A DNA stretch of 64,000 nucleotides from Halococcus qingdaonensis (lineage in GTDB: Archaea > Halobacteriota > Halobacteria > Halobacteriales > Halococcaceae): NCBI RefSeq assembly GCF_024508235.1, contig NZ_CP101943.1, positions 1,178,001-1,242,000 of the forward strand. Reading direction: 5' to 3'. Under the pieces are notes generated by a model. That model did not search any database. It was not told the origin of the DNA and was given only the letters and a program-made list of their open reading frames with translations. The position numbers and the translations under genes are program-made. Of this stretch, positions 11,432 to 47,240 are shown one piece after another. Positions within the stretch are counted from its first letter, which is position 1; the number at the start of each line of letters is the position of its first letter.

Positions 11432-11442
11432 CAGACTGATTC

Positions 11443-13101: not shown

Positions 13102-13176
13102 GAAACGTCTCGGTTCGCGTGAACTAACGACAGTTCTCCCTCCCGAAAACGAGATTGGTCCCCCGATGTGGGACGG

Positions 13177-14304
13177 CTACAGATCGTGGCTGTCGGCGAT
13201 GCGATCGAGATGCTCAGTCGGCGTGCCGAGGAACGTCTCCCACGCCTTCGCCTGCTTGAAGTAGATGTGGCCGTCGTGCTCCGAAGTGAAGCCCATCCCG
13301 CCGTGGTTGTGGATGTCGTCGGCGAAGACCTGTGTGAGCTGCTCCGAACAGAACAGTTTGGCCTCCGAGACCGCACGCGCAGCGTCCTCCTCGTCGTTTT
13401 CGAGCGCCCAGGCCGCGTAGTAGGTGAGCGATCGCGCGGCCTGTGTGGCCATCCACATATCGGCGATGCGGTGTTTGACGGCCTGGAACTGCCCGATCGG
13501 TTTGTCGAACTGCTCACGCTGGCTGCCGTACTCGGACGACATCTCCACCGCGCGGCTCGCGGCCCCGACGGTCATCGCACAGGTGGCGACGGTGTACCGA
13601 TCCATCGCTTCCTGGAGCACCGATCCGGCCTCGCCCTCCGTCCCGAGCAGCGCGCTCTCGTCGACGGTGAAGTCGTCGAAATGGAGTTTCGTTGTCGGGC
13701 GCGTCCGATCGAGGGTGTCCTGCGGTTCGCTATCGACGCGCTCGGCATCCACCAGGAAGAGACTGATGCCGTCCATCCCGGTGCCGGAGCCCGTTCGTGC
13801 GGCGACGACGATCGTATCGACCTGCTTGCCGAACGGCACGAGGGTCTTCGTCCCGTCGAGGCGGTACCCCTCGTCGGTCGGTGCGGCGGCGAGTTGGATA
13901 TCCCTGGGCAGCGATTCCTGGCCCGATTCGTAGAGTGCGAAGCTCAGCCGCTGCTCGCCGTCGGCGATCGCCGGCAGGAATTCCTCCTTCTGGTCGTCGG
14001 TGCCGAGTTCGTCGAGCACGAACGCACCGAACGCGAGCGTTTCGGGCAGCGGGGCCGGCAGCGCGACCCGGCCGGCCTCTTCGAGCAACAGCGAGAGGTA
14101 GAGCACGTCGTCGCCCAGCCCGTTGTATTCGAGCGGGATCGTCAGCGCCGGGTAGTCCATCTCGGATAGATCGGCCCAGAGGTCGTCGACCACCGCTTCG
14201 CCGTCGATCCGTTCCCGGGCGCGTTCGAGGACCTCCCGATCCTCGAAGAACTCCCGCGCCGTCTCGCGCATCTGTCGTTGTTCGTCGTTGATTCTGAAGT
14301 CCAT
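13177..14304 (-). CDS. acyl-CoA dehydrogenase, small (beta) subunit of pair 1
   Basis: 375 aa. The acyl-CoA dehydrogenase fold is clear and the FAD-contact motif REQFDKPIGQFQAVKHRIAD is present. However, the usual substrate/FAD loop (YSEP) and the C-terminal GGT-IQR motif are absent; the C-terminus instead reads HDGHIYFKQAKAW. The partner gene at 14306 has exactly the missing motifs. This is the arrangement of alpha2beta2 acyl-CoA dehydrogenases such as ChsE1-ChsE2 of steroid side-chain degradation. One base separates the two genes. It is 70-80 percent like the beta subunit at 19640 by eye. Confidence 0.88.
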   Translation of the reverse strand: MDFRINDEQRQMRETAREFFEDREVLERARERIDGEAVVDDLWADLSEMDYPALTIPLEYNGLGDDVLYLSLLLEEAGRVALPAPLPETLAFGAFVLDELGTDDQKEEFLPAIADGEQRLSFALYESGQESLPRDIQLAAAPTDEGYRLDGTKTLVPFGKQVDTIVVAARTGSGTGMDGISLFLVDAERVDSEPQDTLDRTRPTTKLHFDDFTVDESALLGTEGEAGSVLQEAMDRYTVATCAMTVGAASRAVEMSSEYGSQREQFDKPIGQFQAVKHRIADMWMATQAARSLTYYAAWALENDEEDAARAVSEAKLFCSEQLTQVFADDIHNHGGMGFTSEHDGHIYFKQAKAWETFLGTPTEHLDRIADSHDL

Positions 14305-14305
14305 A

Positions 14306-15484
14306 TCAGTCGTCCTTCGGCAGCCCGAGCACGCGCTCGGCGATGATGTTTCGCTGGACGTCCTTCGTCCCGCCGGCGATCATCTTCCCGTAGGGCATCA
14401 GCAGGTCCGTCACCCACTGGCCATCGTCCGGGCCATCCGTCCAGAGGGCGTTGTTCGCCCCGAGTAATCGCCGCGCGAAGTTCTCCAGCTTCTTCTCGGT
14501 CTGGTTGTTGAACACCTTGTCCATCGACCCCTCCGGGCCGGGAACTCCCGTTTCCATCTGCTTGCTCACGTTCCGGTAGTGAGTGAGTTTACCCGCCTGG
14601 ATGCGGGTGTGGAGCCGGGCGAGTTCGCGGCGCACGTGGGTGTGCTCGGCGAGCGGCTTGCCGTCGCGTTCGTGTTCCTCACAGAACTCGACGAGCGAGC
14701 GCCAACGCTGGTCGATCGAGAACACGTCCGACATGCTGTGCTCGAACGCCGAGAGCGTCATCGCGACCTCCCATCCCTCGTCGATCTCGCCGACGATGTG
14801 CTCTTCGCGCGCCACGGCGTCGTCGAAGAACACCTCGTTGAAATCCGTCTCGTCGGTGATCTGATGGATCGGTTCGGTCTGTATCTCTTCTTGATCCATA
14901 TCAACCAGGAAGACGGTGATGCCGTGGTGTTTCGGCCCCGATTCGTCCGTTCTCGTCAACAGGAAACACCAGTCGGCGACGTGCGCGTAGCTCGTCCAGA
15001 CCTTCTGCCCGTTGAGCAGGAACTCGTCACCGTTTCGATCGGCCGATAGCGAGAGACTCGCGAGGTCAGAACCGGCATCCGGTTCGGAGTAGCCCTGACA
15101 CCAGAGCTCCTCGCCACTCAGGATCTTCGGCAGGAACCGTTCTTTCTGCTCGTCGGTGCCGAGCTCCATCAGCGTCGGCCCGACGAAATCGATGCCGACG
15201 GCGTTGATGCGCGCCGGCGCGTCGACGCGCGCCGTCTCCTGGCTGTAGATGACCTGTTCGAGCAGCGAGGCGTCCGCACCCCCGTACTCTTCAGGCCAGT
15301 GGAGCCCCGCCCAACCACCCTCGTGGAGCGTTCGCTGCCAGTCGAGCAGGAACTCGACGCTTTCTTCGGGATCGTCCGTCCCCGGACGTTCGCCCGCTTG
15401 CCACCCATCCGGCAGGTTCTCGCGAAGCCACTCGCGAAGCTCCTGCCGGAACCGTTCTTGATCCTCGGTGTACTCGAAATCCAT
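14306..15484 (-). CDS. acyl-CoA dehydrogenase, large (alpha, catalytic) subunit of pair 1
   Basis: 392 aa from the ATG at 15484. It carries GYSEPDAGSDLAS at 131-143, the candidate catalytic base Glu248 in SAFEHS, and the C-terminal IAGGTKDVQRNIIAERVLGL FAD motif. It lacks the RxQFxxPIGxFQ motif supplied by the beta subunit encoded directly downstream. Together they would oxidise an acyl-CoA to the enoyl-CoA and pass electrons to ETF. The start is close in sequence to the second alpha subunit at 18455, so the pairs arose by duplication of a two-gene unit. Confidence 0.9.
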   Translation of the reverse strand: MDFEYTEDQERFRQELREWLRENLPDGWQAGERPGTDDPEESVEFLLDWQRTLHEGGWAGLHWPEEYGGADASLLEQVIYSQETARVDAPARINAVGIDFVGPTLMELGTDEQKERFLPKILSGEELWCQGYSEPDAGSDLASLSLSADRNGDEFLLNGQKVWTSYAHVADWCFLLTRTDESGPKHHGITVFLVDMDQEEIQTEPIHQITDETDFNEVFFDDAVAREEHIVGEIDEGWEVAMTLSAFEHSMSDVFSIDQRWRSLVEFCEEHERDGKPLAEHTHVRRELARLHTRIQAGKLTHYRNVSKQMETGVPGPEGSMDKVFNNQTEKKLENFARRLLGANNALWTDGPDDGQWVTDLLMPYGKMIAGGTKDVQRNIIAERVLGLPKDD

Positions 15485-15653
15485 TGTCTGTCTCGACGGG
15501 CTACCGGACGGGGCAATTCCACATATACCTTGTGCAGTGGGCGGAAAAGCGGTGGGACTCGCGGCCGCCGTCGGCGTGTGGAAGGGAAACACGGATTAGG
15601 GACGGGGGCGAACCCCCGGCGAACCAGCGCCGGAGTCGACGCTGGCACATCCC

Positions 15654-16454
15654 ATGAGCGAGCATACCTACACTTCGATCCGAGTCGAACGGGAATCCGA
15701 CACGCTCGGCCACATCGTGCTGGATCGGCCCGAGGAGATGAACACCTTCTCGCCCGCGATGGCCGAAGAGCTCACCGACGCGCTCTCGGAGCTCGAAGAC
15801 GACGACAGCACACGCGCTGTCGTCATCACGGGCGAGGGGCGGGCGTTCTCGGCCGGCGCGGACGTCGGCGACGGGATGGACGACGACAGTGACGATCCGA
15901 CGCGATCCGGCGTCGAATCGTCGCGCCACGGTCAGTCGGTGTTCGGCCAGTTCCGCGAGTCACCGCTGCCCGTCATCGCCGCCGTGGACGGCTTCGCCCT
16001 CGGGGCCGGCATGGAGCTCACCATGTGTGCCGATCTCCGCGTCGCGTCCGAGAGCGCGGAGTTCGGCCTGCCCGAGCACAACCTCGGACTCCTCCCCGGT
16101 TGGGGTGGCTCCGCCCGCCTCCAGCAGCTCGTCGGCGAGAGCACGGCGAAATACATCATCTTCACCGCCGACCGCTTTTCCGCCGAGCAGATGCAAGAAT
16201 GGCAGTACGTCCACGAAGTCTATCCCGACGACGAGTTCGACGAGCGGGCGATCGACTTCGCCCAGTCGATCGCCGAAGGGCCGCCGATCGCCCAGCGGTA
16301 CACGAAACGCGCGATCCACGCCGCTGCCGAGAGCATCGACGCCGGCCTGGAGGTCGAGGCGAGCAGCCTTGGCCATCTCCTCGACACCGACGATCTCGCC
16401 GAGGGGATGGCCGCCTTCTCCGAGCAACGCGAACCGGAGTTCGAAGGGAAGTAA
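15654..16454 (+). CDS. enoyl-CoA hydratase/isomerase (crotonase family)
   Basis: 266 aa. The crotonase oxyanion-hole segments are visible: AFSAGADV at 65-71 and DGFALGAGMEL near 112-122. Glu121 and Glu141 stand 20 residues apart, as the catalytic pair of classical hydratases does, and LPEHNLGLLPGWGGS is typical. It hydrates an enoyl-CoA to the 3-hydroxyacyl-CoA in beta-oxidation. It is divergent from acyl-CoA dehydrogenase pair 1, with a 169-base gap holding both promoters. Confidence 0.92.
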   Translation: MSEHTYTSIRVERESDTLGHIVLDRPEEMNTFSPAMAEELTDALSELEDDDSTRAVVITGEGRAFSAGADVGDGMDDDSDDPTRSGVESSRHGQSVFGQFRESPLPVIAAVDGFALGAGMELTMCADLRVASESAEFGLPEHNLGLLPGWGGSARLQQLVGESTAKYIIFTADRFSAEQMQEWQYVHEVYPDDEFDERAIDFAQSIAEGPPIAQRYTKRAIHAAAESIDAGLEVEASSLGHLLDTDDLAEGMAAFSEQREPEFEGK

Positions 16455-16619: not shown

Positions 16620-18302
16620 TCAGAGCTTCTCGCTCGGTTCGAGCGTTCCGATCTCCGATTCGACACGCTCTTCGAGCTTGTACCGTTGGACCTTCTGAGT
16701 CGCGCTTTTGGGGAGTTCATCGACGAAGAACACTCGCCGTGGATGGGCGTACGCCGCGACGTTCTCCAGCGCGAACCGGCGGATTTCGTTCTCGGTGACG
16801 GTTGCACCCTCCTCGCTGACGACGTAGGCGACGGGTGCCTCGCCCTTCACCTCGTGATCGGCGGCGACGACCGCTGCTTCCTCGACGTCGGGATGGAAGA
16901 ACAGTTCGTCCTCGATCTCGGCGGGATAGACGTTCTCGCCGCCGACGACCAGCATGTCGTCGCTCCGATCGACCATCCAGAGGAATCGATCCTCGTCGAC
17001 GCGCGCGATGTCCTTGGTGTAGAACCAGCCCTCGTCGTCGAACACCTCCTCGTTCTTCTCGGGCAGGTTGTAGTAGCCCTCGAACACTGGTGGGCCGCGG
17101 ATCGCGATCTCGCCCGTGTAGCTCGCCTCGTCGTCAAAGTCGGGTTCGTAGCCAGTGAGACCGGCCGGCGCGGTCGGATCGAGATGTTCGGGCGGCACGC
17201 GCGTCTCGCGAGTCGTCGGGTCGACCAGCTTCATCTCGATACCCGGCATCGGCTGGCCGATACAGCCCGCGCCCTTCTGGACGCCCCTCGCGGATGCGGC
17301 CGTGCCCGCCGTGGTTTCGGTCATCCCCCAGCCCTCGACGAGTGCGACGCCGAAGGCATCCTCGATGCGGTTGCGGGTGTCGGCAGCCAGCGGTGCCGCA
17401 CCGATCCCTAGTGTCTTGATCGAGGAGACATCGTACTGCTCGGGGTTGGCTTCGACCTCCTGGAGCATGCTGATGTACAGCGCCGGGACGCCGGTGTGAT
17501 CGGTGATCCCGCGTCGGTCGATCGTTTCGAGCAGCACGTCCGGCCTGAGCTGATTCTGGAGCACGACCGACCGCCCGCTGTACAGCGTCAACAGCGTACT
17601 GCCGATCAGTCCGATGATGTGGTACATCGGCGTGATCAGGAGTATCGAGTCCCCTTCCGGGTCGATCGCCTGCGTTTCGGCGAACGCCTGCAACGTCGTG
17701 AGGATGTTGCGGTGGGTCATCGGGACTCCCTTCGGGTTGCCTGTGGTCCCGCTCGTATAGCCCTGGAAACAGGCGTCGGTCTCGTAATCGCGATCGACGG
17801 TCTCGAACTCCGTGGCGCGGTCCGCGATCAATTCGTCGTAATCCGTGACGCCCCCCGCTTCGCCGCCCGGAACGAACGCGTGTTCGAGATCGAGCGTCTC
17901 GTGGAGCCCGACGACCAGCTCTGCCAGCCGTTCGGAGCCGAACAGGACGTCGACGCCCGCGTCTTCCAGGACGTAGACGAGCCGGTCGTGTGCCAGTTGG
18001 ACATTGAGCGGTACGGCCACCGCCCCTACCTTACAGATACCGAACGCGACCGGCATGTACGTGAGGTTGTTCTCCATCGCAATGGCGACCCGATCGCCCG
18101 GTTCGACGCCCGCGTCGACGAGCCCGTTCGCGATCCTGTTGGCGGTGGCTTCGAGCTCCGCGTAGCTCAGTTCGTCTTCCTGGTGGTGCATCGCCGTCTT
18201 CTCCCCGTATCGCTCGGCTCCCATCGACGGGAGATCCCCGAGATGTCGGAGCGGTGTCCGTTGGTGAAACTTCATCCCTCGATCCGTCACGTTTGAAACC
18301 AT
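16620..18302 (-). CDS. AMP-forming acyl-CoA synthetase
   Basis: 560 aa from the ATG at 18302; an internal ATG at 18275 (MKFHQRTPL) is an alternative. The ANL-family motifs are complete: the P-loop GYTSGTTGNPKGVPMTH, EGWGMTETTAG, the hinge segment YTKDIARVDEDRFLWMVDR and a C-terminal lysine region (LPKSATQKVQR). It activates a carboxylic acid to its CoA thioester and is the likely entry point for the neighbouring acyl-CoA enzymes. The acid cannot be read from the sequence. Confidence 0.9.
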   Translation of the reverse strand: MVSNVTDRGMKFHQRTPLRHLGDLPSMGAERYGEKTAMHHQEDELSYAELEATANRIANGLVDAGVEPGDRVAIAMENNLTYMPVAFGICKVGAVAVPLNVQLAHDRLVYVLEDAGVDVLFGSERLAELVVGLHETLDLEHAFVPGGEAGGVTDYDELIADRATEFETVDRDYETDACFQGYTSGTTGNPKGVPMTHRNILTTLQAFAETQAIDPEGDSILLITPMYHIIGLIGSTLLTLYSGRSVVLQNQLRPDVLLETIDRRGITDHTGVPALYISMLQEVEANPEQYDVSSIKTLGIGAAPLAADTRNRIEDAFGVALVEGWGMTETTAGTAASARGVQKGAGCIGQPMPGIEMKLVDPTTRETRVPPEHLDPTAPAGLTGYEPDFDDEASYTGEIAIRGPPVFEGYYNLPEKNEEVFDDEGWFYTKDIARVDEDRFLWMVDRSDDMLVVGGENVYPAEIEDELFFHPDVEEAAVVAADHEVKGEAPVAYVVSEEGATVTENEIRRFALENVAAYAHPRRVFFVDELPKSATQKVQRYKLEERVESEIGTLEPSEKL

Positions 18303-18454
18303 ATGTCTTAGTTCTTTCCCATAGATTGTTATCGTTTTCCGCGGTCGGCGGCATTGGGGAGAGTGGCTCCACCCGAAATCGGAACGCGATGGTGATCGAG
18401 GGAAAACATTTATCAAAGATAACTGCGGACGTATCGACGGTTGCAAAACCACGC

Positions 18455-19636
18455 ATGAACTTCGACTACACTGACGAGCAGGAGGCGTTCCGTCGCGAGA
18501 TCCGGGAGTGGTACGAGGAGAACCTCCCCGACGGCTGGATCGATGGCGAGCGCGACCTGCCGGACGACGAGGACGAGCGCGAACAGTTCCTCCGGGAGTG
18601 GCAGCGGAAACTCCACGAGGGTGGCTGGGCGGCGATCCACTGGCCCGAGGAGTACGGCGGTCGCGACGCGAGCCTGATGCAGCAGTTGATCTACCAACAG
18701 GAGAAGGCCCGCGTGAACCCGCCGCCCGAGCGCAGCGAGATCGGGGTCGACCTCGTCGGCCCGGCGATCGAAGGGTTCGGCACCGAGGAACAGAAGGAGC
18801 GCTATCTGCCGAAGATCCTGAGCGGCGAGGAACTCTGGTGTATCGGCTACTCCGAACCGGACGTCGGCTCCGACCTCGCGAGCCTCCAGTGCAAAGCCGT
18901 CGACGAGGGCGACCACTTCCGCATCAACGGGCAGAAGATTTGGACGACGCACGCCCACAAAGCCGACTGGTGTTACATGTTCACTCGCACCGATAATTCG
19001 GGACCGAAACACCACGGCATCACGGCCCTCATCGTCGACATGGACCAGGAGGGTGTGACGACCGACCGTATCCGCCAGATCACCGACGAGCGCGAGTTCA
19101 ATCAGGTCTATTTCGACGACGCGACGACGCCGAAGGAGAACGTCCTCAACGAAGTCGATGAGGGCTGGGAGGTCGCCATGCGACAGCTCTCCTTCGAGCG
19201 GATCTCGCTCTCGCAGTCGCTCGATCTCGAACGGCGCTTCGACGAACTCGTCGAGTTCTGTAAGAACGAGACGCGCGGCGGCACGCCGCTGGTGGAGGAT
19301 CCACACGTCCGCGAGAAACTCGCCGAGTTCGACACCCGGATTCAGGCGGCGAAGCTGACCTACTTCCGCAACGTGAGCAAGCAGATGAACGGCGATCTCG
19401 GTGCCGAAGCTTCCTTCGGCAAACTGTACGACAGCGAGATCGCTGCCGACCTCCATCGGTTTAGAGTGAAACTCGGTGGGCCGAAGGCAGCGCTCTGGGG
19501 CGACGACTCGCCGAACGGGGCGGCGAAGGACTCGCTCGCGAACATCTCGATCCGGATCGGCGGCGGGACATCGGACATCCAGCGCAACATCATCGGCGAA
19601 CGCGTGCTCGGACTGCCGAAGGGAGACCAGGAGTAA
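18455..19636 (+). CDS. acyl-CoA dehydrogenase, large (alpha, catalytic) subunit of pair 2
   Basis: 393 aa from the ATG at 18455. GYSEPDVGSDLAS at 131-143, the candidate catalytic base Glu248 in LSFERIS, and the C-terminal RIGGGTSDIQRNIIGERVLG are present. The RxQFxxPIG motif is missing and is supplied by the gene three bases downstream. A TTTATC element lies about 45 bases before the ATG, so a short leader is possible. It is divergent from the acyl-CoA synthetase gene, with a 152-base shared control region. Confidence 0.9.
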   Translation: MNFDYTDEQEAFRREIREWYEENLPDGWIDGERDLPDDEDEREQFLREWQRKLHEGGWAAIHWPEEYGGRDASLMQQLIYQQEKARVNPPPERSEIGVDLVGPAIEGFGTEEQKERYLPKILSGEELWCIGYSEPDVGSDLASLQCKAVDEGDHFRINGQKIWTTHAHKADWCYMFTRTDNSGPKHHGITALIVDMDQEGVTTDRIRQITDEREFNQVYFDDATTPKENVLNEVDEGWEVAMRQLSFERISLSQSLDLERRFDELVEFCKNETRGGTPLVEDPHVREKLAEFDTRIQAAKLTYFRNVSKQMNGDLGAEASFGKLYDSEIAADLHRFRVKLGGPKAALWGDDSPNGAAKDSLANISIRIGGGTSDIQRNIIGERVLGLPKGDQE

Positions 19637-19639
19637 CCC

Positions 19640-20761
19640 ATGGATTTCACGCTCTCGGACGAACAGACACAGATGCAGGAATCGGTGCGTGACTACCTCG
19701 AATCGGAGGGCGGCATCGAACTCGCCCGCCGACAGATGGACGGCGAGGACGTCGTCGGCGAGGTCTGGGACGGTCTCGCGGAGATGGATTACCCCGCATT
19801 GAGCGTCCCGCTCGAATACGGTGGCTTGGGTGACGATCTGCTCTACCTCTCGCTACTGTTCGAGGAGGCCGGCCGGGTCGCACTCCCGGGACCGCTGCCC
19901 GAGACGCTCGGGTTCACCGTCCCGTTACTCGCGGAACTCGGCACCGACGAGCAGAAAGGGCAGTTCCTGCCGGCGATCGCCGACGGCGATCTCCGTGCGA
20001 GCGTCGCACTCTACGACGACGCCACCGAATCGCTCCCCGAAGCCATCCGGATGGAGGCCGAACCCACGGACGACGGCTATCGTCTCGATGGGACGAAGAC
20101 GCTCGTGCCCTACGCCGAAAGCGTCGATCGAGTGGTCGTGCCCGCTCGAACCCGCCAGGACACCGGCTACGGCGGCATCACGCTGTTCTTCGTCGATCCT
20201 GCGGCGGCGGAGGCGGAGCAGCTCGACACGCTCGACAAGACCCGACCGCTGTACGAACTCACCTTCGACGGGGTCGAGGTTTCCGGCGCGCGGCTCGGCC
20301 CGGTCGATGGCGGCGGGGACGCGCTCGAACGCGCCATCGATCGTCTCAACGTCTCGATGTGTGCGATGCTCGTCGGCGGGGCCGACGAGGCGGTCGACCG
20401 GTCGGTCGAGTACGGCAAGCAGCGCGAGCAGTTCGACAAGCCGATCGGACAGTTCCAGGCCGTCAAACACCGCATCGCCGATATGTGGCTCGACACGGAG
20501 GCCGCGCGATCGCTCACCTACTACGCGGCGTGGGCGATCGCGAACGACGAGGAGGACGCACGCCGGGCCGTCTCGGCGGCGACGGCGTACTGCACCGAGC
20601 ACTGTGGCGAGCTCTTCGAGGACGACATCTTCAACCACGGGGCGACGGGCTACACGTGGGACCACGACGGCCATATCTTCCTCAAACAGGCCAAAACGTG
20701 GGCGAACCTCCTCGGCTCGCCGACGGAACATCGCCGACGGATCGCCGACATCCGGCTGTAG
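19640..20761 (+). CDS. acyl-CoA dehydrogenase, small (beta) subunit of pair 2
   Basis: 373 aa, start three bases after the alpha subunit stop, so the two are almost certainly cotranslated. It has REQFDKPIGQFQAVKHRIAD, but no YSEP loop and no C-terminal GGT motif; the end reads HDGHIFLKQAKTW. Motifs are thus complementary to the alpha subunit, as in ChsE-type heterotetramers, where each FAD site is built from both chains. Confidence 0.88.
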   Translation: MDFTLSDEQTQMQESVRDYLESEGGIELARRQMDGEDVVGEVWDGLAEMDYPALSVPLEYGGLGDDLLYLSLLFEEAGRVALPGPLPETLGFTVPLLAELGTDEQKGQFLPAIADGDLRASVALYDDATESLPEAIRMEAEPTDDGYRLDGTKTLVPYAESVDRVVVPARTRQDTGYGGITLFFVDPAAAEAEQLDTLDKTRPLYELTFDGVEVSGARLGPVDGGGDALERAIDRLNVSMCAMLVGGADEAVDRSVEYGKQREQFDKPIGQFQAVKHRIADMWLDTEAARSLTYYAAWAIANDEEDARRAVSAATAYCTEHCGELFEDDIFNHGATGYTWDHDGHIFLKQAKTWANLLGSPTEHRRRIADIRL

Positions 20762-20867: not shown

Positions 20868-22025
20868 CTACACTCGTTCGATGATGGTGGCGACGCCCAT
20901 GCCGAGACCGATACACATCGTCGAGAGCCCGTAGCGCTGGCCAGTCTCTTGGAGCTGGTGGGCGAGTTTCGTCACGAGCATGCTCCCGGTCGCACCGAGC
21001 GGGTGGCCGTGGGCGATCGCCCCGCCCCAGACGTTGGTCCGGTCCCACTCGGCGTCGGTGTCCTGGAGCCACGCCGCGACGACCGACGCGAACGCCTCGT
21101 TGCACTCGAACAGGTCGATGTCCGCCCCGGTCATGTCGTTCGCCGCGAGGATCTCGTTGGTCGCCGGTAGCGGCCCAGTGAGGATCGTCTCTGGCGAGAC
21201 CCCGACGATGTGGGTATCGACGATACGGACCATCGGGTCCCAGCCGCGATCGTCGGCGACGTCAGGGTCCGCGACCAGCAGCGCTGCCGAGCCATCGACG
21301 ACGCCCGAGGAGTTCCCGGCGTGGATGACGCCGTCGCCCTCCTCCCTGGCAAGTACAGGAAGATTCGAGAGCGTCTCCATGTCGGTCTCCGGCCGGGGGT
21401 GTTCGTCGACCTCCACAGTAATGTCCTCGCCGTCGAGTTCGGTCTCGACGGGCGTCACCTGGCTGTCGTAGTGGCCGGCGTCCCAGGCTTCCTTCCAGCG
21501 GCGTTGGGAATCGAGGGCGATCGAGTCGACGTCTTCGCGGGTGATGTCCCAGCGATCGGCGATGAGCTCGGCCCCCTGGAACTGGTTGGTCTCGCTGCCG
21601 ACGGGGAACAGTTCGTGGTAGGTCTCGCTGCGCTCGCCCGCATCGTCTCCGATAGCGTGGTCGGTCATATGCTCGACGCCGCCGGCGACCATTACATCTC
21701 GATAGCCCGACTTCACGCTCGCAGCGGCGAGGTTGAGGGTCGTCTGGCCCGAGCCACACATCCGATTGAGCTGGAAGCCCGGGACGGCGTCGCCCCAGCC
21801 GGCGACCATCGTCGCGTGCCGACCGATGTTGCTCCCCTGCTTGTCGACGGCGGTGACACAGCCGATCGCGGCGTCGTCGACGGTGGTCGCGGGATCGAAC
21901 CCGACCCGTTCTTCGAGCGCGCGTAGCGGTGCGGCCGCGAGGTCCTGGGGGTGCGTGTCGCGGAACACGCCCCCGTCCGCCCCGAACGGCGTTCTGACGC
22001 AGTCGACGATAACAGGATCGTTCAT
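20868..22025 (-). CDS. acetyl-CoA C-acyltransferase (beta-ketothiolase)
   Basis: 385 aa from the ATG at 22025. All thiolase residues are present: nucleophile Cys90 in NRMCGSGQTT, NEAFAS, GHPLGATGS with the catalytic His, and a second Cys in STMCIGLGMG. It cleaves a 3-ketoacyl-CoA to acetyl-CoA in the last step of beta-oxidation, or condenses acetyl-CoA. It is the only one of the three thiolase-fold genes in the window that keeps the nucleophile. It converges on acyl-CoA dehydrogenase pair 2. Confidence 0.93.
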   Translation of the reverse strand: MNDPVIVDCVRTPFGADGGVFRDTHPQDLAAAPLRALEERVGFDPATTVDDAAIGCVTAVDKQGSNIGRHATMVAGWGDAVPGFQLNRMCGSGQTTLNLAAASVKSGYRDVMVAGGVEHMTDHAIGDDAGERSETYHELFPVGSETNQFQGAELIADRWDITREDVDSIALDSQRRWKEAWDAGHYDSQVTPVETELDGEDITVEVDEHPRPETDMETLSNLPVLAREEGDGVIHAGNSSGVVDGSAALLVADPDVADDRGWDPMVRIVDTHIVGVSPETILTGPLPATNEILAANDMTGADIDLFECNEAFASVVAAWLQDTDAEWDRTNVWGGAIAHGHPLGATGSMLVTKLAHQLQETGQRYGLSTMCIGLGMGVATIIERV

Positions 22026-22812: not shown

Positions 22813-23589
22813 TCAGAACGCGAACAGGTCCGCACCGCCGGTGACGCCGACGAGCTGGCCGGTGATGTAGTTCGCCTGCTCGCTCGACAGGTAGGCGATG
22901 AGGTTCGCGATGTCCTCCTCGCGGCCGGCTCGGCGCATCGGGATCATCTCCACGATCCGGTGCATGTGCTCGTCCATCGCCTCGATCTCCTCCAACTCCA
23001 GGTCGGCGAGCTCGCTCGCCGCGAGACTCGGCGCGACGATGTTCGCCGTGACACCCGACTGTGCGCCCTCTAGCGCGAGCGTCTTGCCGAAGCCGATGAG
23101 CGCGGATTTCGTCGCCGAGTAGGAGGCTTGGCCGAATCCACCGAGCCAGCCCGCGATCGACGTCATGTTCATGACCCGGCCCCAGCCGCGCTCGCACATC
23201 GCGGGGAACACCTCGCGGGTGATGTTGTACGTCCCGGTGAGGTTGACCGCCACGTCGCGGTCCCAGAGATCGTCGTCGTAGTTCTCGAGCTTCGAGCGCG
23301 CGTCGACCGCCGCCGCGTTGTTGACGAGGATATCGACGCCGCCGCTCTCCTCGCGGATCGTCTCGATCGTCGAGGCGACGCCATCGCGATCGGTGAGATC
23401 ACACTCGACCGCCTCGACGCTGCCGGCGACGTCGTCGAGGTCGGCCGCGACCGATTCGGCACCCTCCAGATCGACATCGAGACAGTAGACGTCCGCGCCT
23501 TCGTCGGCGAGTATCTCACAGTCGGCGCTGCCGATCCGGCCACCGCCGCCGGTGACGACGGCGGTCTTGTCGCTGATTCCGAGATCCAT
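22813..23589 (-). CDS. short-chain dehydrogenase/reductase (FabG / 3-hydroxyacyl-CoA dehydrogenase-like)
   Basis: 258 aa from the ATG at 23589. The Rossmann motif is VVTGGGGRIGSADC at about residues 11-24, followed by LVNNAAAVD, the catalytic Ser in MTSIAGW and the YSATK active site (Tyr and Lys). It reduces or oxidises a hydroxyl/keto group with NAD(P). In this setting it probably oxidises a 3-hydroxyacyl-CoA or a related alcohol. It is divergent from the aldolase-type gene at 23679; the two share an 89-base control region with a TATA element for each. Confidence 0.9.
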   Translation of the reverse strand: MDLGISDKTAVVTGGGGRIGSADCEILADEGADVYCLDVDLEGAESVAADLDDVAGSVEAVECDLTDRDGVASTIETIREESGGVDILVNNAAAVDARSKLENYDDDLWDRDVAVNLTGTYNITREVFPAMCERGWGRVMNMTSIAGWLGGFGQASYSATKSALIGFGKTLALEGAQSGVTANIVAPSLAASELADLELEEIEAMDEHMHRIVEMIPMRRAGREEDIANLIAYLSSEQANYITGQLVGVTGGADLFAF

Positions 23590-23678: not shown

Positions 23679-24860
23679 ATGCCGTGGAATTCAGACGCAT
23701 GTATCGTCGGACTCGGCGAGACGGAATATGTCAAACAGGGCGAGATGACCGACCGCAGCGAGTTCGAGCTCGCCTGTGAGGCGATCGAGAACGCCGCCGG
23801 GGACGCCGGCGTCGACATCGAGGACGTCGACGGCTTCTCGTCGTACGCGAACGATCGGAACAAGGGCTCGCTCGTCGCCGATGCGCTCGGCATCCCTGAA
23901 GTGAAGTTCTCGAACAAGGTCTGGGGCGGCGGTGGCTGTGGCGGCTCCGCCGCGGTGATGAACGCCGCGATGGCCATCGAGTCGGGCGCGGCGGAGTACG
24001 TCGTCGCCTACCGCGCGCTCTGTCAGGGCCAGTTCGGCCGTCGTGGCCAGACACAGGGTATCGATTACGCGGAGGGTACCGACGCGTTTGCCCACTCCCT
24101 TGGTCTCGAAACGCCGCCGCAGATGTACGCGCTGCCCGCACAGCGCTACATGCACGAATACGACATCCCACAGGAACATTTGGGCCACGTCGCGCTCACC
24201 TCGCGCGCCCACGCGAACCGCAACCCGCGGGCCGTAATGCACGACCGCGAGATGACGATGGAGGAGTACATGGATTCGCCGCCGATCACCGACCCGTACA
24301 AGCTCTACGACTGCTGTCTCGAAAGCGACGGGGCCTGTGCCGTGCTCGTTACCTCCGCCGAGAACGCTGCCGACCTGCCACAGCCGGCCGTCGAGATCAC
24401 GTCGGCCGCACAGGGCGGTGGCCCGGGCTGGGGCAGCGGGATCCTCTCCTCGCACAACATGCCGCTTGAGGACTACCCGACCTCGAACGCCGCGCGGGTC
24501 GCCGACCGGCTGTTCGAGAGCGCCGGGCTCACGCCCGACGACATCGACGTCGCACAGCTCTACGAGAACTTCACCGGGATGGTGTTGATGACCGCCGAGG
24601 ACTACGGGTTCGCACCTCGCGGCGAGGCCGGCGAGCTGTTCGTCGACGGCAACGCCATCGGGCCCGACGCCGATCTCCCGATCAACACTTCCGGTGGGAA
24701 TCTCTCGGAGGCGTACATCCACGGGTTCAACCTCGTCGTCGAAGCCGCCCGGCAAGTCAGAGGTACCTCACCGACGCAGGTCGACGACGTCGAGTACAGC
24801 CTCGTCGCCAGCGGGCCGGGCGTGACCCCCCACAGCGGGCTGATCCTCTCGCCCGCGTAG
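23679..24860 (+). CDS. thiolase-fold protein of the Ltp2 (retro-aldolase) type
   Basis: 393 aa. The thiolase fold is recognisable (CIVGLGETEY start), but the catalytic set is changed: the nucleophile Cys position is Gly85 in VWGGGGCGGS, and the usual GHPxGxSG histidine loop is replaced by TSGGNLSEAYIHG with Tyr346. LYENFTG carries Tyr295. Loss of Cys/His with a tyrosine in this loop is the hallmark of Ltp2-type steroid side-chain aldolases, which work with a DUF35 partner. A DUF35 gene is the third gene of this operon. Probable role: retro-aldol cleavage of a 3-hydroxyacyl-CoA with a tertiary alcohol. Confidence 0.82.
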   Translation: MPWNSDACIVGLGETEYVKQGEMTDRSEFELACEAIENAAGDAGVDIEDVDGFSSYANDRNKGSLVADALGIPEVKFSNKVWGGGGCGGSAAVMNAAMAIESGAAEYVVAYRALCQGQFGRRGQTQGIDYAEGTDAFAHSLGLETPPQMYALPAQRYMHEYDIPQEHLGHVALTSRAHANRNPRAVMHDREMTMEEYMDSPPITDPYKLYDCCLESDGACAVLVTSAENAADLPQPAVEITSAAQGGGPGWGSGILSSHNMPLEDYPTSNAARVADRLFESAGLTPDDIDVAQLYENFTGMVLMTAEDYGFAPRGEAGELFVDGNAIGPDADLPINTSGGNLSEAYIHGFNLVVEAARQVRGTSPTQVDDVEYSLVASGPGVTPHSGLILSPA

Positions 24861-24877
24861 TTACACATCACAGAAAA

Positions 24878-25939
24878 ATGAGTTCAGAAAACGACGACGT
24901 CACGGCGATCGACGTAGCGACGGGATCGTTCGAGGAAGCACAGGAGTGGGTCGGCCGGTCCGGAGACACGTTCTTTGCCGCAGAACCGGTCAACCGCTCG
25001 ATGATCCAGTTCTACGCCGCGCTGATCGAGGACGCGAACCCCTCCTTCTGGGACGAGCGCTTCGCGGCGAACCACTGGGGCGGGGTTCGGAGCCCGCCGG
25101 GTCTGTTCTGGACCTGGAAGATGGATCCGGAGTGGACACCCGGCCCGGAGACCGAGGGGGACGAGGGTGAGGACGTCTCGGTGACGGACGTGCCGTTGCC
25201 GGGCGGGAAGGACACCATCATCAACACGCAGTCGAAGACCACGATCTATCGACCGCTGCTGGTCGGCACGCAGCTGAACTGGCAGACCTCGATCGAGTCC
25301 GTGAGCGAGGAGAAGGAGACACGGGTCGGGACGGGCAACTTCGTCACCGAGAAGACGACCTACCGCGACGGCGGCGGCGAACTCGTCGCCGAGGAGTCGA
25401 ACGTGATGCTCCGTTACAGTGCCGCCGACGAGGAGGAGAACACGGAATCGTTCGATACGCCCTTCGCCGAGGGTCGTCGTGCGGTCGACGTGCCGGAGGG
25501 GCAGGGACCCGACGACCCGTACGCATCGATCGACGTCGGCGAGGTCTCGCCAGGCGACACGGTCGAGGGATACGAATTTCCGGTCACGTACACGAAGGTC
25601 GTCCACAACGCGGCCGCGACGCGGGACTTCTCGGGCCATCACCACGATCCGGAGTACACCCGCTCACGGGGTAACGAGACGATCTTCCTCAACACGATGG
25701 CGCTTCAAGGATTGGCCGACCGGGTGGCGGTGCAGTGGGCCGGCCCGGAGTGGCGGATCGCCGAGCGCGAGATCGCCATCCAGGGGACGGCCTATGCCGG
25801 CGACGAACTCTCGGTCGGAGCCGAGGTCACGGACGTCGACGAAACCGAGGGCCGGATCGAGCTCGCCGTGACGATGGACAACGACGGCCGGGACGTCTGT
25901 CCGTCGTCGGTCGCGCTCGTCAGGGACGGGGTGAAATAG
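24878..25939 (+). CDS. MaoC-type double hot-dog enoyl-CoA hydratase
   Basis: 353 aa made of two hot-dog domains. The N-terminal half (~20-180) resembles FAS1-like/ChsH dehydratase halves (MIQFYAALIEDANPSFWDE). The C-terminal half carries the hydratase-2 motif RDFSGHHHDPEY with Asp250 and His255. It would hydrate the enoyl-CoA made by an acyl-CoA dehydrogenase pair and hand the product to the adjacent aldolase, as ChsH1-ChsH2 do for Ltp2. It starts 17 bases after the aldolase gene. Confidence 0.85.
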   Translation: MSSENDDVTAIDVATGSFEEAQEWVGRSGDTFFAAEPVNRSMIQFYAALIEDANPSFWDERFAANHWGGVRSPPGLFWTWKMDPEWTPGPETEGDEGEDVSVTDVPLPGGKDTIINTQSKTTIYRPLLVGTQLNWQTSIESVSEEKETRVGTGNFVTEKTTYRDGGGELVAEESNVMLRYSAADEEENTESFDTPFAEGRRAVDVPEGQGPDDPYASIDVGEVSPGDTVEGYEFPVTYTKVVHNAAATRDFSGHHHDPEYTRSRGNETIFLNTMALQGLADRVAVQWAGPEWRIAEREIAIQGTAYAGDELSVGAEVTDVDETEGRIELAVTMDNDGRDVCPSSVALVRDGVK

Positions 25940-26043
25940 TCGATGAGGGGATGCGATAGTCGGATGGCGATGCCGTCGAACCACGGGCGGGCGAATGGAC
26001 GGAACGTTTATTCCACGGCGACCGGAAAGGGAGGACGAGGACA

Positions 26044-26469
26044 ATGAGAGGTACTACCAGAGAGGAGATCTTCCCGCTCCCGGAGAAGGGAATCGACACC
26101 GCCCCGTTCTGGGAGGCGTGCAACCGACACGAGCTCGTCGTCCAGGAGTGCGCGGACTGTGGCGAGCGCCGGCACCCGCCCACGCCGGTCTGTCCCGAAT
26201 GTCGCTCGTTCGAGGTCGACTGGGCTGATGTCCCCGGTACGGGCGAGGTCTACACGTACACGACGACCCACTACGCCGCCAGCCCCGCCCACGAGGACCA
26301 CACCCCCTACAACGTCTCGACCGTCCTGCTCGACGGAACCGAGGATATCCGCCTCATCACGCAGGTCGTCGATGTCGATCCCGAAGCGGTCGAGATCGGC
26401 ATGCCGGTCGAAGTGGTTTGGGAGGACGTCAACGAAGATACGACGGTCCCGCTGTTCCGTCCCTCCTGA
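26044..26469 (+). CDS. DUF35 zinc-ribbon/OB-fold protein, aldolase partner
   Basis: 141 aa. The rubredoxin-like zinc ribbon is CADCGERRHPPTPVCPEC near residues 37-54, followed by the OB fold with VPGTGEVYTYTTTHY. DUF35 proteins bind to thiolase-fold enzymes and help form their CoA channel; in steroid degradation the DUF35 domain is fused to the MaoC protein ChsH2, while here it is a separate gene about 100 bases downstream of the MaoC gene. Start ATG at 26044. Confidence 0.88.
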   Translation: MRGTTREEIFPLPEKGIDTAPFWEACNRHELVVQECADCGERRHPPTPVCPECRSFEVDWADVPGTGEVYTYTTTHYAASPAHEDHTPYNVSTVLLDGTEDIRLITQVVDVDPEAVEIGMPVEVVWEDVNEDTTVPLFRPS

Positions 26470-27554: not shown

Positions 27555-28337
27555 TCACTGAGTCGTACTGTACTGTGCGTACGTGAGGTTGAACTCCAAG
27601 ACGTTCTTGAGTCTGCGGAGCGCCTCGGGTAGTTCCTCGGTGAGGCGCTCGTCGGTGAACTCGCTCGCGGGGCCGTAGACGAGGATCGAGCCGATGTTGC
27701 GGGCGTCCTCGACGAGGATCGGGATCGCGATTTCGTGGATGCCGACGATGTCCTCCTCGCGCGAGACGGCGTAGCCGACCTCCCGGATCGTTTCGAGTTC
27801 CTCGAACAGCGTCTCCCGATCGGTGATCGTGTTCTCGGTGACGGCGTCGAGCCCGACGCGCTCGACGATCTCCACGACTCGTTCGTGCGGGAGACTTGCC
27901 AGAATGGCCTTGCCGCCCGCGTTGATGTGGAGATAGTTGCGATTGCCCGCCCGTGGCTGAATCCGTATCGAATCGTCGTTCTCGACGCTGTAGAGCGTGA
28001 CGCCATAGCCACTCTCCTCCTTCAACAGGGCGATGTTGTTGTCGGTCTCGGCGGCGAACTTGTCGATCTCCGGCTTCGCCGCCGCGTACAACGGGTCCTG
28101 GCTCCGTACCTCCGTGCCGATCGAGAGATGGAGCGAGCTGACGTAGTAGCCGTCGTCGCCACGGATGACGTAGCCGATTTCGGTCAACGTACTGAGATAT
28201 TCGTGAGTCGTGCTCAGCGGTCTGTCGATCCGTTCGGCGGTCTCGGTAACGCCTGCGCCGTCGTTCTCGACCAGGAAATCGATGATGTCCTTGGCGGTCC
28301 TGAGCGACTGTATCGGCACGGTGTCGGATGCATCCAT
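27555..28337 (-). CDS. IclR-family transcriptional regulator
   Basis: 260 aa from the ATG at 28337; the frame extends upstream but the extra residues are basic and hydrophobic. An N-terminal winged helix (SLRTAKDIIDFLVE, VTETAERIDRPLSTTHEYLSTL) is followed by the effector-binding GAF-like domain (LHINAGGKAILASLP, GYAVSREEDIVGIHEIAIPI). IclR proteins control catabolic operons for acids and aromatic compounds. It lies between the acyl-CoA block and etfBA, so it is the best local candidate for controlling them. Confidence 0.9.
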   Translation of the reverse strand: MDASDTVPIQSLRTAKDIIDFLVENDGAGVTETAERIDRPLSTTHEYLSTLTEIGYVIRGDDGYYVSSLHLSIGTEVRSQDPLYAAAKPEIDKFAAETDNNIALLKEESGYGVTLYSVENDDSIRIQPRAGNRNYLHINAGGKAILASLPHERVVEIVERVGLDAVTENTITDRETLFEELETIREVGYAVSREEDIVGIHEIAIPILVEDARNIGSILVYGPASEFTDERLTEELPEALRRLKNVLEFNLTYAQYSTTQ

Positions 28338-28521
28338 ACAGAAATGGGCCGGCGATTCAACATCAAGGTTTCGTGTATATCGAAAGCAGCGCAGCAGGGC
28401 AGCGATGGCCGAGGATCGGCAGTTCTGGTACAGCCACCACAACGGTTAGATCGGCGAATGATTGCTTCCGAGATATCGATCGCGAGCGCGCGGACTGCAA
28501 AGGTCGCACACACCGGTATCG

Positions 28522-28549: not shown

Positions 28550-29341
28550 ATGAAGGTTCTGGTGGCAGTGGCGGAGGTGGCCGACGTCGAGGACGAGTTC
28601 GAAATCGACGGGCTGGCCATCGACGAGCAGTACCTGAACTACGATCTCAACGAGTGGGACGACTACGCCGTCGAGGCGGGCGTCCAGCTCCAAGAAGCGG
28701 GCGACGATGTCGAGGTCGTCTCGGTGACGATCGGACCTGAACGCGCCGACGAAACCATCCGCATGGCGCTCGCCAAGGGTGTCGATCGTGCCGTCCGTGT
28801 CTGGGACGAGAATCTGGAGGCGACGGAATACCTCGACAGCGAGACCAAAGCCGACGTTCTGGCGGCCGTCGTCGAGGACGAACAGCCCGATCTCGTTCTC
28901 GCTGGCGTCCAATCCGACGACACCGCCTTCGGCGCGACCGGAGTCTCCCTCGCCGAGGAAGTCGGCTTCGAGTGGGCCGCCGTCGTCAACGATCTGGAGT
29001 ACGAACCAGGAAGCGACATCGCATCGGTCCACCGCGAACTCGAAGGTGGTGTCGAGGAGTTCACTGACGTCGAACTACCCGCTGTGTTGACCATCCAGAC
29101 GGGGATCAACGAACCACGGTACGCCAGCCTGCGCGGGATTCGGCAGGCCCAGTCCAAGGAGATCGCGCCCAAAACCCTCGACGAACTGGGTCTTGAATCT
29201 GACGTCACCGACAGTGCGGTGTCACTCACCGAGCTCTACGAACCGGAGACCGAAAGCGACGCCACCCTCTTCGAGGGCAGCCCCGACGAGGAGGCCGACC
29301 AACTCGCCGAGCTCCTCCGCGACGAGGGGGTCGAAGCATGA
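28550..29341 (+). CDS. etfB: electron transfer flavoprotein beta subunit
   Basis: 263 aa. The ETF-beta pattern is visible: an early N-D-Y-A-V-E-A motif (LNEWDDYAVEAGVQL), VVSVTIGPERADETIRMALA, the LAGVQSDDTAFGATGVSLAE segment and the conserved IRQAQSKEI near residue 195. ETF takes electrons from acyl-CoA dehydrogenases and passes them to the membrane quinone pool. Its stop overlaps the etfA start by four bases. Placement next to four dehydrogenase genes fits. Confidence 0.93.
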   Translation: MKVLVAVAEVADVEDEFEIDGLAIDEQYLNYDLNEWDDYAVEAGVQLQEAGDDVEVVSVTIGPERADETIRMALAKGVDRAVRVWDENLEATEYLDSETKADVLAAVVEDEQPDLVLAGVQSDDTAFGATGVSLAEEVGFEWAAVVNDLEYEPGSDIASVHRELEGGVEEFTDVELPAVLTIQTGINEPRYASLRGIRQAQSKEIAPKTLDELGLESDVTDSAVSLTELYEPETESDATLFEGSPDEEADQLAELLRDEGVEA

Positions 29342-30309
29342 GCGATATTCTGGCCGTCGCCGAACACCGCCGCGGCGACCTCCGTGATGTGAGCTTCGAA
29401 CTCGTCACTGCCGGGCGCGACCTCGCCGACGCCGCCGGTGGCGACCTCCACGTGGCCGTCATCGGCGGCGACGTCGACGGGTTCGCCGAGGAACTGAACC
29501 GCGAGGGCGTCGATACGATTCACACGATTAGTGAGGGCGAGGAGTTCAATCACGACGTCTACACTCAAATCGTCGAAGCGCTCTTCGACGAACTGGCTCC
29601 GGAACTGCTCCTGCTACCCAACACGGTCAACGGGCTCGACTACGCACCAGCTGTTGCTAACAGTCTGTCGCTGCCACTCGTCACCGACGCCATCGACGTC
29701 GAGTACGGTGACGAACTGGCCGTCACTCGCGAGATGTACGGCTCGAAAGTCGAGACAGTGGTCGAGGTCGACGCCGATCGGGTAGCACTGACGATCCGCC
29801 CCGGCGAGTGGCCACCCGCCGAGGCCACTGGCGATGCCGAAATCAGCCAATTCGACGTCTCGATCGACGAATCGGCCGTCCGCTCGACCGTGACTGGGTT
29901 CCAAGAAGTCGGTGGTGGCGACGTCGACATCACCGACGCCGACGTTCTGGTGAGCGTCGGGCGCGGTATCGAGGAAGAAGAGAACATCGCGCTCGTCGAA
30001 GCGCTGGCCGACACGCTCGGTGCGACGCTCTCTTCATCGAGGCCGATCGTCGACAACGGCTGGCTGCCCAAAAACCGGCAGGTCGGCCAATCCGGGAAGG
30101 TCGTCACTCCTGATGTGTATATCGCCATCGGCATCTCGGGGGCCGTCCAGCACGTCGCCGGCATGAAGGGTGCCGACACCATCGTCGCCATCAACACCGA
30201 CGCGAGCGCCCCCATCTACGATCTCGCCGACTACGGCGTCGTCGACGACCTCTTCGACGTCGTTCCCGCCCTCATCGAAGCCTTCGGTGGCGAACCGCCC
30301 GCACTCTGA
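29338..30309 (+). CDS. etfA: electron transfer flavoprotein alpha subunit
   Basis: 323 aa, overlapping etfB by four bases. The C-terminal FAD-binding region is typical: ADVLVSVGRGIEEEEN, SRPIVDNGWLPKNRQVGQSG, YIAIGISGAVQHVAGMKGA and IVAINTDASAPIYDLADYGV. It holds the FAD of the ETF heterodimer. Nothing unusual. Confidence 0.95.
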   Translation: MSDILAVAEHRRGDLRDVSFELVTAGRDLADAAGGDLHVAVIGGDVDGFAEELNREGVDTIHTISEGEEFNHDVYTQIVEALFDELAPELLLLPNTVNGLDYAPAVANSLSLPLVTDAIDVEYGDELAVTREMYGSKVETVVEVDADRVALTIRPGEWPPAEATGDAEISQFDVSIDESAVRSTVTGFQEVGGGDVDITDADVLVSVGRGIEEEENIALVEALADTLGATLSSSRPIVDNGWLPKNRQVGQSGKVVTPDVYIAIGISGAVQHVAGMKGADTIVAINTDASAPIYDLADYGVVDDLFDVVPALIEAFGGEPPAL

Positions 30310-31571: not shown

Positions 31572-32219
31572 TCAATCGGACGGTCTTTGATCGGCGAACA
31601 GCGTCTCGTCGAGTCGGTCATCGATCGCTGCACGCGTGGTATCGAGGATCGTCTCGTCGCCGAGCACCACCAGCTGCAGGCGTGCGCCGTCGATCATCGT
31701 CAGCAGTAGCGTCGCGATGTAGTCGGGATCGACGGGAGCGAAGACGCTGTCGTCGATCCCACAGTCGATCACGCGCGCGGTCAGCCGGTGGACGTACGCA
31801 CGATTCCGGCGGAACTGATCGCGGTAGGCCTCGTTGAACGGGGCCTGCGAGCGGAGTTCGAGCATCGCGATCTGGAAGGACTCGTTGTCGTCGGGCCCGT
31901 ACAGCAGGCTGTCGATCAGCCCGTCGAGCTGCGTCACCGGATCCGTGATCTCGCTGGCCGCGACCCGGTTCTTGAAGTTCTCCAGGAGATAGGCGAGAAA
32001 CGACGAGAGGAGATCCTCGCGCGAGTCGTAGTGATAGAAGATCAGCGATTTGCTCTTGTCGAACTCGTCGGCGATCGCCTGTACAGAGAGATCGGCTGCC
32101 CCATGCGTACGGAGCGCCCGATAGGTCGCCTCCATGATCGCCTCGTTCGCCGTCCCCGAATCCGCCTGCTCCGCAGTGTCGTCCGCCGCATCGATGTCGT
32201 CCGCGTTCGTCTCGCTCAC
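31572..32219 (-). CDS. TetR/AcrR-family transcriptional regulator
   Basis: 215 aa. The N-terminal tail is acidic; the helix-turn-helix spans about residues 26-70 (ANEAIMEATYRALRTHG, LSVQAIADEFDKSKSLIFYHYDSREDLL). The C-terminal ligand domain has TetR_C-like helices. Its targets are unknown; it sits between a UspA gene and the sugar-utilisation block, all on the minus strand but separated by over 100 bases. Confidence 0.9.
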   Translation of the reverse strand: MSETNADDIDAADDTAEQADSGTANEAIMEATYRALRTHGAADLSVQAIADEFDKSKSLIFYHYDSREDLLSSFLAYLLENFKNRVAASEITDPVTQLDGLIDSLLYGPDDNESFQIAMLELRSQAPFNEAYRDQFRRNRAYVHRLTARVIDCGIDDSVFAPVDPDYIATLLLTMIDGARLQLVVLGDETILDTTRAAIDDRLDETLFADQRPSD

Positions 32220-47197: not shown

Positions 47198-47240
47198 TTC
47201 GTCCGGGTCGTCTCCCGCCCCCGTTATGGATGTTTCGACG

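Follow-up and report, generated by a model that had tools for sequence, protein, structure and literature searches.

A putative hydratase and retro-aldolase unit, probably acquired from bacteria, in the haloarchaeon Halococcus qingdaonensis

A 64,000 nt stretch of the genome of Halococcus qingdaonensis (contig NZ_CP101943.1, positions 1,178,001 to 1,242,000; hereafter the window, with positions counted from its first letter) harbors three adjacent genes at 23679-26469, whose predicted products are a thiolase-fold retro-aldolase resembling Ltp2, a fused double hot-dog MaoC hydratase and a stand-alone DUF35 protein. We propose, with a probability of about 0.73, that they constitute a hydratase and retro-aldolase unit for acyl-coenzyme A (acyl-CoA) substrates blocked at the beta carbon, which was horizontally acquired and is accompanied by a two-round pathway encoded in the same locus. 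Steroid-type side-chain aldolases have been described in actinobacteria and proteobacteria, and the Halococcus unit is probably the first archaeal case of carbon-chain cleavage by cholesterol-side-chain-type chemistry.

The three-gene unit

The three open reading frames (ORFs), which an earlier note on this DNA had described as an Ltp2/ChsH-like operon, are intact and co-directional, and all carry a haloarchaeal codon and acidic signature. Comparison with H. morrhuae and H. thailandensis, in which the gene order of the locus is the same, yielded ratios of nonsynonymous to synonymous substitution (dN/dS) of 0.025-0.11 at dS values of 0.21-0.29, indicating that purifying selection acts on the coding sequences of the aldolase, MaoC and DUF35 genes. 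The aldolase and MaoC genes are separated by 17 nt, and the MaoC and DUF35 genes by 104 nt, with a TATA-like TTTATT discernible by eye approximately 35 nt upstream of the DUF35 start. The three genes constitute a putative operon and may form a single transcript.

Fold and active site of the aldolase

The aldolase contains the Pfam domains Thiolase_N and Thiolase_C_1, and its top sequence match in the Protein Data Bank (PDB) is TcLtp2 of the Ltp2-ChsH2(DUF35) complex (6ok1; e-value: 8e-81; ~44% identity). Foldseek comparison of the predicted structure (predicted local distance difference test, pLDDT: 86.5; predicted template modeling score, pTM: 0.90) also placed 6ok1 first (TM-score: 0.88-0.90), followed by 4u4e, an archaeal thiolase, SCP2 thiolases and Sal. 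In TcLtp2, Tyr294 (YDHF) is the catalytic base and Tyr344 the acid, while His296 lies in the oxyanion hole (PMC12329534). Tyr295 and Tyr346 of the Halococcus protein align with this tyrosine pair. The former was not recorded in the earlier note, while the latter is situated in a loop replacing the GHP loop of thiolases, exactly as described there. Across 32 aligned relatives, no variation is seen at Tyr346 or at the two glycines that occupy the thiolase Cys site, and almost none at Tyr295, while the position of the oxyanion His is variable (residues include H, N, D, A and C). Conservation thus extends to the tyrosine pair that defines the mechanism, whereas the His is not diagnostic of the family. 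The substitution of the Cys by Gly also stands, although the alignment shifts the nucleophile column by one, from the proposed Gly85 to Gly86, both of which are invariant.

The Gly-rich loop at the Cys site, the YxxF and EAYxHG motifs and a nearby DUF35 gene are traits of the broader Ltp2-like (EAYxHG) family, the DUF35 gene in Halococcus following the MaoC gene rather than directly following the aldolase gene. Identity as an ordinary thiolase or acetyl-CoA acetyltransferase is ruled out by the missing Cys, the missing GHP/His loop and the phylogeny, which places the protein outside the ordinary acetyl-CoA acetyltransferases. By contrast, another thiolase gene of the window (20868-22025) has kept both features.

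The MaoC hydratase and the DUF35 protein

Pfam assigns FAS1_DH_region to the MaoC protein, together with a MaoC match below threshold. As was not appreciated earlier, its N half matches ChsH2 and its C half ChsH1 (4wnb). The C half reads ATRDFSGHHHD where ChsH1 reads ATRDFQDVHHD, and the Asp250/His255 dyad is present exactly as the earlier note had it, while the N half has the sequence D-x-N-P-x-F, from which the catalytic His is gone (Phe57). In ChsH1-ChsH2 the dyad occurs only in ChsH1, and ChsH2 makes space for the bulky ring (PMC11321319). A ChsH2-like half lacking the His joined to a ChsH1-like half with Asp250/His255 indicates that ChsH2N and ChsH1 are fused in one chain, and this domain fusion is the genuine rearrangement in Halococcus. 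Other haloarchaeal fused MaoC proteins share 27-29% identity with it and contain a canonical SGDFNPIHYD motif.

The DUF35 protein comprises the Pfam domains zf-ChsH2 and OB_ChsH2_C. Its top match is the DUF35 domain of ChsH2 (6ok1 chain B; e-value: 3.6e-30), with the DUF35 domains of Shy (9myr) and of archaeal thiolase/hydroxymethylglutaryl-CoA (HMG-CoA) synthase next. The separation of DUF35 into its own gene had been regarded as an archaeal feature. It is, however, the usual bacterial arrangement, as 53/59 relatives have a DUF35 gene no more than 600 nt from the aldolase gene, mostly as a stand-alone ORF of 135-170 amino acids. The MaoC and DUF35 parts of Comamonas testosteroni ChsH2 are functional when expressed separately, and DUF35 is required for aldolase activity (PMC12502768).

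Distribution and origin

At an e-value of 1e-60 the aldolase is found in 3/391 Halobacteria genomes, all of closely related Halococcus. A separate phylum-wide sample searched at 1e-45 added only 4u4e-type proteins of another haloarchaeal family (five genomes; 36-38% identity). These were rejected as further carriers, as they group with the Sphaerobacter protein 4u4e and lack Tyr344. As an observation in its own right, these haloarchaeal homologues (loci L112-L116) of the uncharacterised Sphaerobacter protein have no Cys and conserve YDSF and SYCHP motifs. A scan of approximately 85,000 species genomes with exact peptide patterns, by which distant members are missed, recovered 59 aldolase loci, all bacterial except those of Halococcus.

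The nearest relatives of the aldolase (52-56% identity) occur in metagenome-assembled genomes (MAGs) of Chloroflexi and proteobacteria. In the tree the three Halococcus aldolases fall inside a bacterial clade (support: 98/97) distinct from that of TcLtp2. Given this nesting, transfer from bacteria is the simplest reading, and we infer this direction for a unit that was probably acquired horizontally. The beta subunits of the acyl-CoA dehydrogenases in the locus, on the other hand, have 55-60% relatives in other haloarchaea, so that the locus looks mosaic. Other Halococcus species compared at the position of the locus showed no shared synteny, and the insertion ends of the island are accordingly unreadable.

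Several loci of relatives have further features. One Chloroflexi locus (L009) has the gene set of the Halococcus unit, with an acyl-CoA dehydrogenase pair, the aldolase, DUF35 and, in place of the fusion, two separate MaoC genes. A second aldolase/DUF35 pair comes next, and then aldehyde ferredoxin oxidoreductases. Two of the latter lie by an aldolase/DUF35 pair (11138-16397; groundwater Chloroflexi MAG), which suggests an anaerobic, aldehyde-producing version. In three loci (L016, 12157-13320; L022, 4461-5603; L058, ~11480) a second thiolase-fold protein with a shortened Gly loop and without the tyrosine pair is encoded after the aldolase and DUF35 genes, and is perhaps a pseudo-enzyme partner. 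A large proteobacterial clade (L024-L026, L030-L032, L036-L040, L045-L051, L063) has YDCF-type aldolases, including one in Croceicoccus estronivorus, and its loci mostly combine a crotonase gene directly upstream, a DUF35 gene after the aldolase and two short-chain dehydrogenase/reductase (SDR) genes downstream.

The surrounding locus

The unit is flanked by genes for two alpha/beta acyl-CoA dehydrogenase pairs and for further predicted catabolic and regulatory proteins (Table 1).

Table 1. Predicted genes of the hydratase and retro-aldolase locus, in positions of the window
Feature	Position	Strand	Remarks
Acyl-CoA dehydrogenase beta, first pair	13177..14304	-	61% to 19640-20761
Acyl-CoA dehydrogenase alpha, first pair	14306..15490	-	57% to 18455-19636
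Crotonase-type enoyl-CoA hydratase	15654..16454	+	Profiles generic, no substrate call
Acyl-CoA ligase (AMP-binding)	16620..18305	-	Profiles generic, no substrate call
Acyl-CoA dehydrogenase alpha, second pair	18455..19636	+	ChsE4/PimC-like, catalytic Glu present
Acyl-CoA dehydrogenase beta, second pair	19640..20761	+	Tcur3481/PimD-like, catalytic Glu absent
Ordinary 3-ketoacyl-CoA thiolase	20868..22025	-	Cys and GHP loop
SDR-family dehydrogenase	22813..23586	-	Divergent from aldolase gene
Ltp2-like thiolase-fold retro-aldolase, 393 aa	23679..24860	+	Tyr295 (YENF), Asn297, Tyr346 (EAYIHG), Gly85/Gly86 at thiolase Cys site
Fused double hot-dog MaoC hydratase, 353 aa	24878..25939	+	N half ChsH2-like, Phe57 at hydratase His position; C half ChsH1-like (TRDF-SG-HHHD, Asp250/His255)
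Stand-alone DUF35 protein, 141 aa	26044..26469	+	zf-ChsH2 zinc ribbon (four Cys) and OB_ChsH2_C
IclR-family regulator	27555..28442	-	
Electron-transfer flavoprotein EtfB and EtfA	28550..30309	+	Probable electron acceptor of dehydrogenases
TetR-family regulator	31572..32219	-	

The two dehydrogenase pairs, a further element absent from the earlier note, are mutually paralogous (57% for alpha, 61% for beta), and the top PDB match of the alpha subunit is ChsE4 (34% identity). In an alignment with ChsE4, whose Glu247 we take to be the catalytic base, each alpha subunit has Glu250 at this position, whereas the beta subunits have Leu or Tyr there. In alpha2beta2 acyl-CoA dehydrogenases the catalytic Glu is confined to the alpha subunit (PMC11153573). 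Both pairs in the window display this ChsE/PimCD-type trait of adjacent paralogous subunits with the catalytic Glu in only one of them. Overall, the gene content of the locus makes up a plausible two-round pathway, with one thiolytic and one aldolytic round.

Alpha/beta dehydrogenase pairs that resemble the window pairs at 53-65% also occur in other haloarchaea (L079-L084). Several of these pairs adjoin APH-type phosphotransferases, an amidohydrolase, metallo-beta-lactamase-fold proteins, and DUF35 and thiolase-like genes, representing unstudied CoA pathways. Elsewhere in the window (45648-49135, minus strand), a second DUF35 gene is located beside an ordinary thiolase gene (HDMF, GHP loop) and one for a carboxyl-transferase subunit.

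Proposed pathway and possible substrates

From the computed genes, fold, residues, domain partition, locus content and phylogeny, we infer a reaction, the formation of a complex and an order of steps. The ligase would activate an acid to its acyl-CoA, and one dehydrogenase pair, together with the crotonase, SDR and thiolase, would run a preceding round of normal beta-oxidation, with EtfAB accepting the dehydrogenase electrons. The other alpha/beta pair would then introduce the alpha,beta double bond, to which the fused MaoC protein would add water, its ChsH1-like half being catalytic and its ChsH2-like half accommodating the bulky part of the substrate. Finally, the aldolase, presumably held by the DUF35 protein, would cleave the 3-hydroxyacyl-CoA, Tyr295 taking the hydroxyl proton and Tyr346 protonating the enolate. 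The predicted products are a ketone (or aldehyde) and acetyl- or propionyl-CoA, such that a two- or three-carbon unit would be removed from a bulky or branched acyl-CoA. The beta carbon is presumed to be blocked, since, by the logic of such pathways, an aldolase becomes necessary when no ketone can be made there.

Several observations weigh against this reading. The aldolase lies outside the only clade with a characterised Ltp2, and a forced grouping was rejected by the approximately unbiased (AU) test (p = 2.2e-5), which rules out a strict Ltp2 ortholog. The oxyanion His296 of TcLtp2 is replaced by Asn297. This is not disabling, since replacement of His296 in TcLtp2 lowers efficiency about 14-fold (PMC12329534). 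The structure model of the MaoC protein is poor (8 sequences; pLDDT: 51) and was used for the double hot-dog fold class only. Furthermore, the best NCBIfam matches of the dehydrogenases are pimeloyl-CoA dehydrogenase profiles (PimC for the alpha subunits, PimD for the beta subunit of the aldolytic round), and as such a steroid substrate does not follow from the dehydrogenase pair alone. The Ltp2/ChsH-like designation thus holds in part: a retro-aldolase of the Ltp2 kind is coupled to a MaoC hydratase and DUF35, but the AU test, Asn297 and a PRK07855 score of 399, below the cut-off of 469, argue against an Ltp2 ortholog.

With regard to the substrate, a branched isoprenoid or alicyclic acid, for instance a cycloalkane acid or a 3-methyl acid of the phytanic type derived from archaeal lipids, is tentatively put forward, in which case hydration would yield a tertiary alcohol and the aldolase would split it into a ketone and acetyl-CoA. 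By established pathway logic, 3-methyl and ring-attached chains provide the required beta carbon that cannot form a ketone, such acids could occur at hypersaline sites, and relatives of the dehydrogenases occur in other archaeal catabolic loci. However, none of the genes in the locus is indicative of isoprenoids, and only three closely related Halococcus genomes carry the set, although archaeal lipids are available to all haloarchaea.

A true steroid route, in which the C5 side chain of a sterol or bile acid would pass through one thiolytic and one aldolytic round to a 17-keto steroid and propionyl-CoA, is unlikely. The locus does mirror the last two actinobacterial side-chain rounds (two paired acyl-CoA dehydrogenases, enoyl-CoA hydratase, SDR, thiolase, ChsH1/H2-like hydratase, Ltp2-like aldolase and DUF35), and the top PDB matches of the aldolase, MaoC, DUF35 and dehydrogenase alpha proteins are all steroid enzymes. 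Yet KshA_C was found neither in the source genome (a 95% complete copy, which may lack plasmids) nor in any of 10 Halococcus genomes, and the top FAD_binding_2 (PF00890) proteins of the source genome are NadB, SdhA, GlpA and GlpB, with no KstD candidate among them. Complete breakdown of steroids along the known aerobic pathway is therefore improbable and the steroid side-chain link of the earlier note is not supported, while side-chain removal alone from a steroid may take place. Moreover, a survey of more than 8,000 genomes detected no steroid-degrading archaea (PMC4810484), and true Ltp2 proteins stay close across phyla (TA441 vs M. tuberculosis: 63%; PMC12502768), whereas the Halococcus aldolase falls outside their clade. 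One P450 of the genome, considered as a sterol-chain hydroxylase, had top PDB matches to mixed P450 families and received no assignment. No paper on haloarchaeal steroid or retro-aldol pathways was found in the collection of literature searched.

Cleavage of an aryl-propenoyl (cinnamate-like) CoA to an aromatic aldehyde and acetyl-CoA appears quite improbable. Same-clade relatives do adjoin aldehyde oxidisers, namely the two aldehyde ferredoxin oxidoreductases of L009, on account of which the products of some relatives may be aldehydes, and an aldehyde dehydrogenase in L020; the ligase, for its part, matches a fatty-acyl-CoA synthase and a feruloyl-CoA synthetase best in the PDB. The annotated genes around the Halococcus unit, however, include no aldehyde dehydrogenase, and one round would suffice for such a substrate, whereas the locus has two paired dehydrogenases and a thiolase. 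Lastly, that the thiolase-fold protein is an acyltransferase, decarboxylase or inactive scaffold is very doubtful, for although thiolase-fold/DUF35 complexes also form C-C bonds (PhlABC and the archaeal HMG-CoA synthase complex) and many are without tested function, PhlABC and the HMG-CoA synthase complex use a Cys nucleophile, whereas the Halococcus protein has Gly in an invariant Gly-rich loop at this site, an invariant Tyr346 loop and a nearly invariant Tyr295.

On the preferred reading of a hydratase and retro-aldolase unit, a more specific, speculative proposal may be ventured: Halococcus could be the first archaeon known to degrade the side chain of a polycyclic or branched isoprenoid acid in two rounds, combining a horizontally acquired YENF-type retro-aldolase from a new clade, a rearranged ChsH2N-ChsH1 fusion hydratase and native paired dehydrogenases, with the ring ketone released or channelled without KshA or KstD. 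If the reading is correct, the complete and strongly conserved Halococcus module would extend side-chain aldolase chemistry to the archaea, and its natural re-partition of the ChsH1, ChsH2 and DUF35 domains would test the need for hydratase-aldolase tethering. It would also provide a source of salt-stable aldolases, possibly useful for steroid and terpenoid synthesis, and render the diet of these halophiles directly testable.

Comparison with known systems

The igr-type cluster chsE1-chsE2-chsH1-chsH2-ltp2 of M. tuberculosis, represented in C. testosteroni by ORF40-44, has the same enzyme set, to which the Halococcus locus adds a thiolytic round, a different domain partition and an archaeal host in whose genome no KshA or KstD candidate was found. 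With TcLtp2-ChsH2(DUF35) of Thermomonospora curvata (6ok1; ~44% identity), the aldolase shares the thiolase fold, tyrosine pair, Gly in place of Cys and a DUF35 partner, but YDHF has become YENF, the clade is separate and DUF35 is its own gene. The Sal-Shy(DUF35) bile-acid aldolase of Comamonas (9myr; 25% identity) is likewise a thiolase-fold retro-aldolase with DUF35. Sal has a Tyr/Cys catalytic pair (YDCY), with Gln at the Tyr344 site (PMC12329534). The alpha/beta pairs, in each of which a single partner has the catalytic Glu, recall ChsE4-ChsE5, ChsE1-ChsE2 and PimC-PimD, although identity to ChsE4 is 34%, two paralogous pairs occur in one archaeal locus and PimCD profiles score best in NCBIfam. 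Bacterial fused double-MaoC steroid hydratases exist (ChsH3, CasD, CasQ) but serve other steps (PMC11321319). The closest parallel to the hydratase is ChsH1-ChsH2 of M. tuberculosis (4wnb, 4w78), which also combines an inert ChsH2-like and a catalytic ChsH1-like half with an ATRDF..HHD motif; there the halves are separate subunits with DUF35 on ChsH2, whereas in Halococcus they are fused and DUF35 is unattached.

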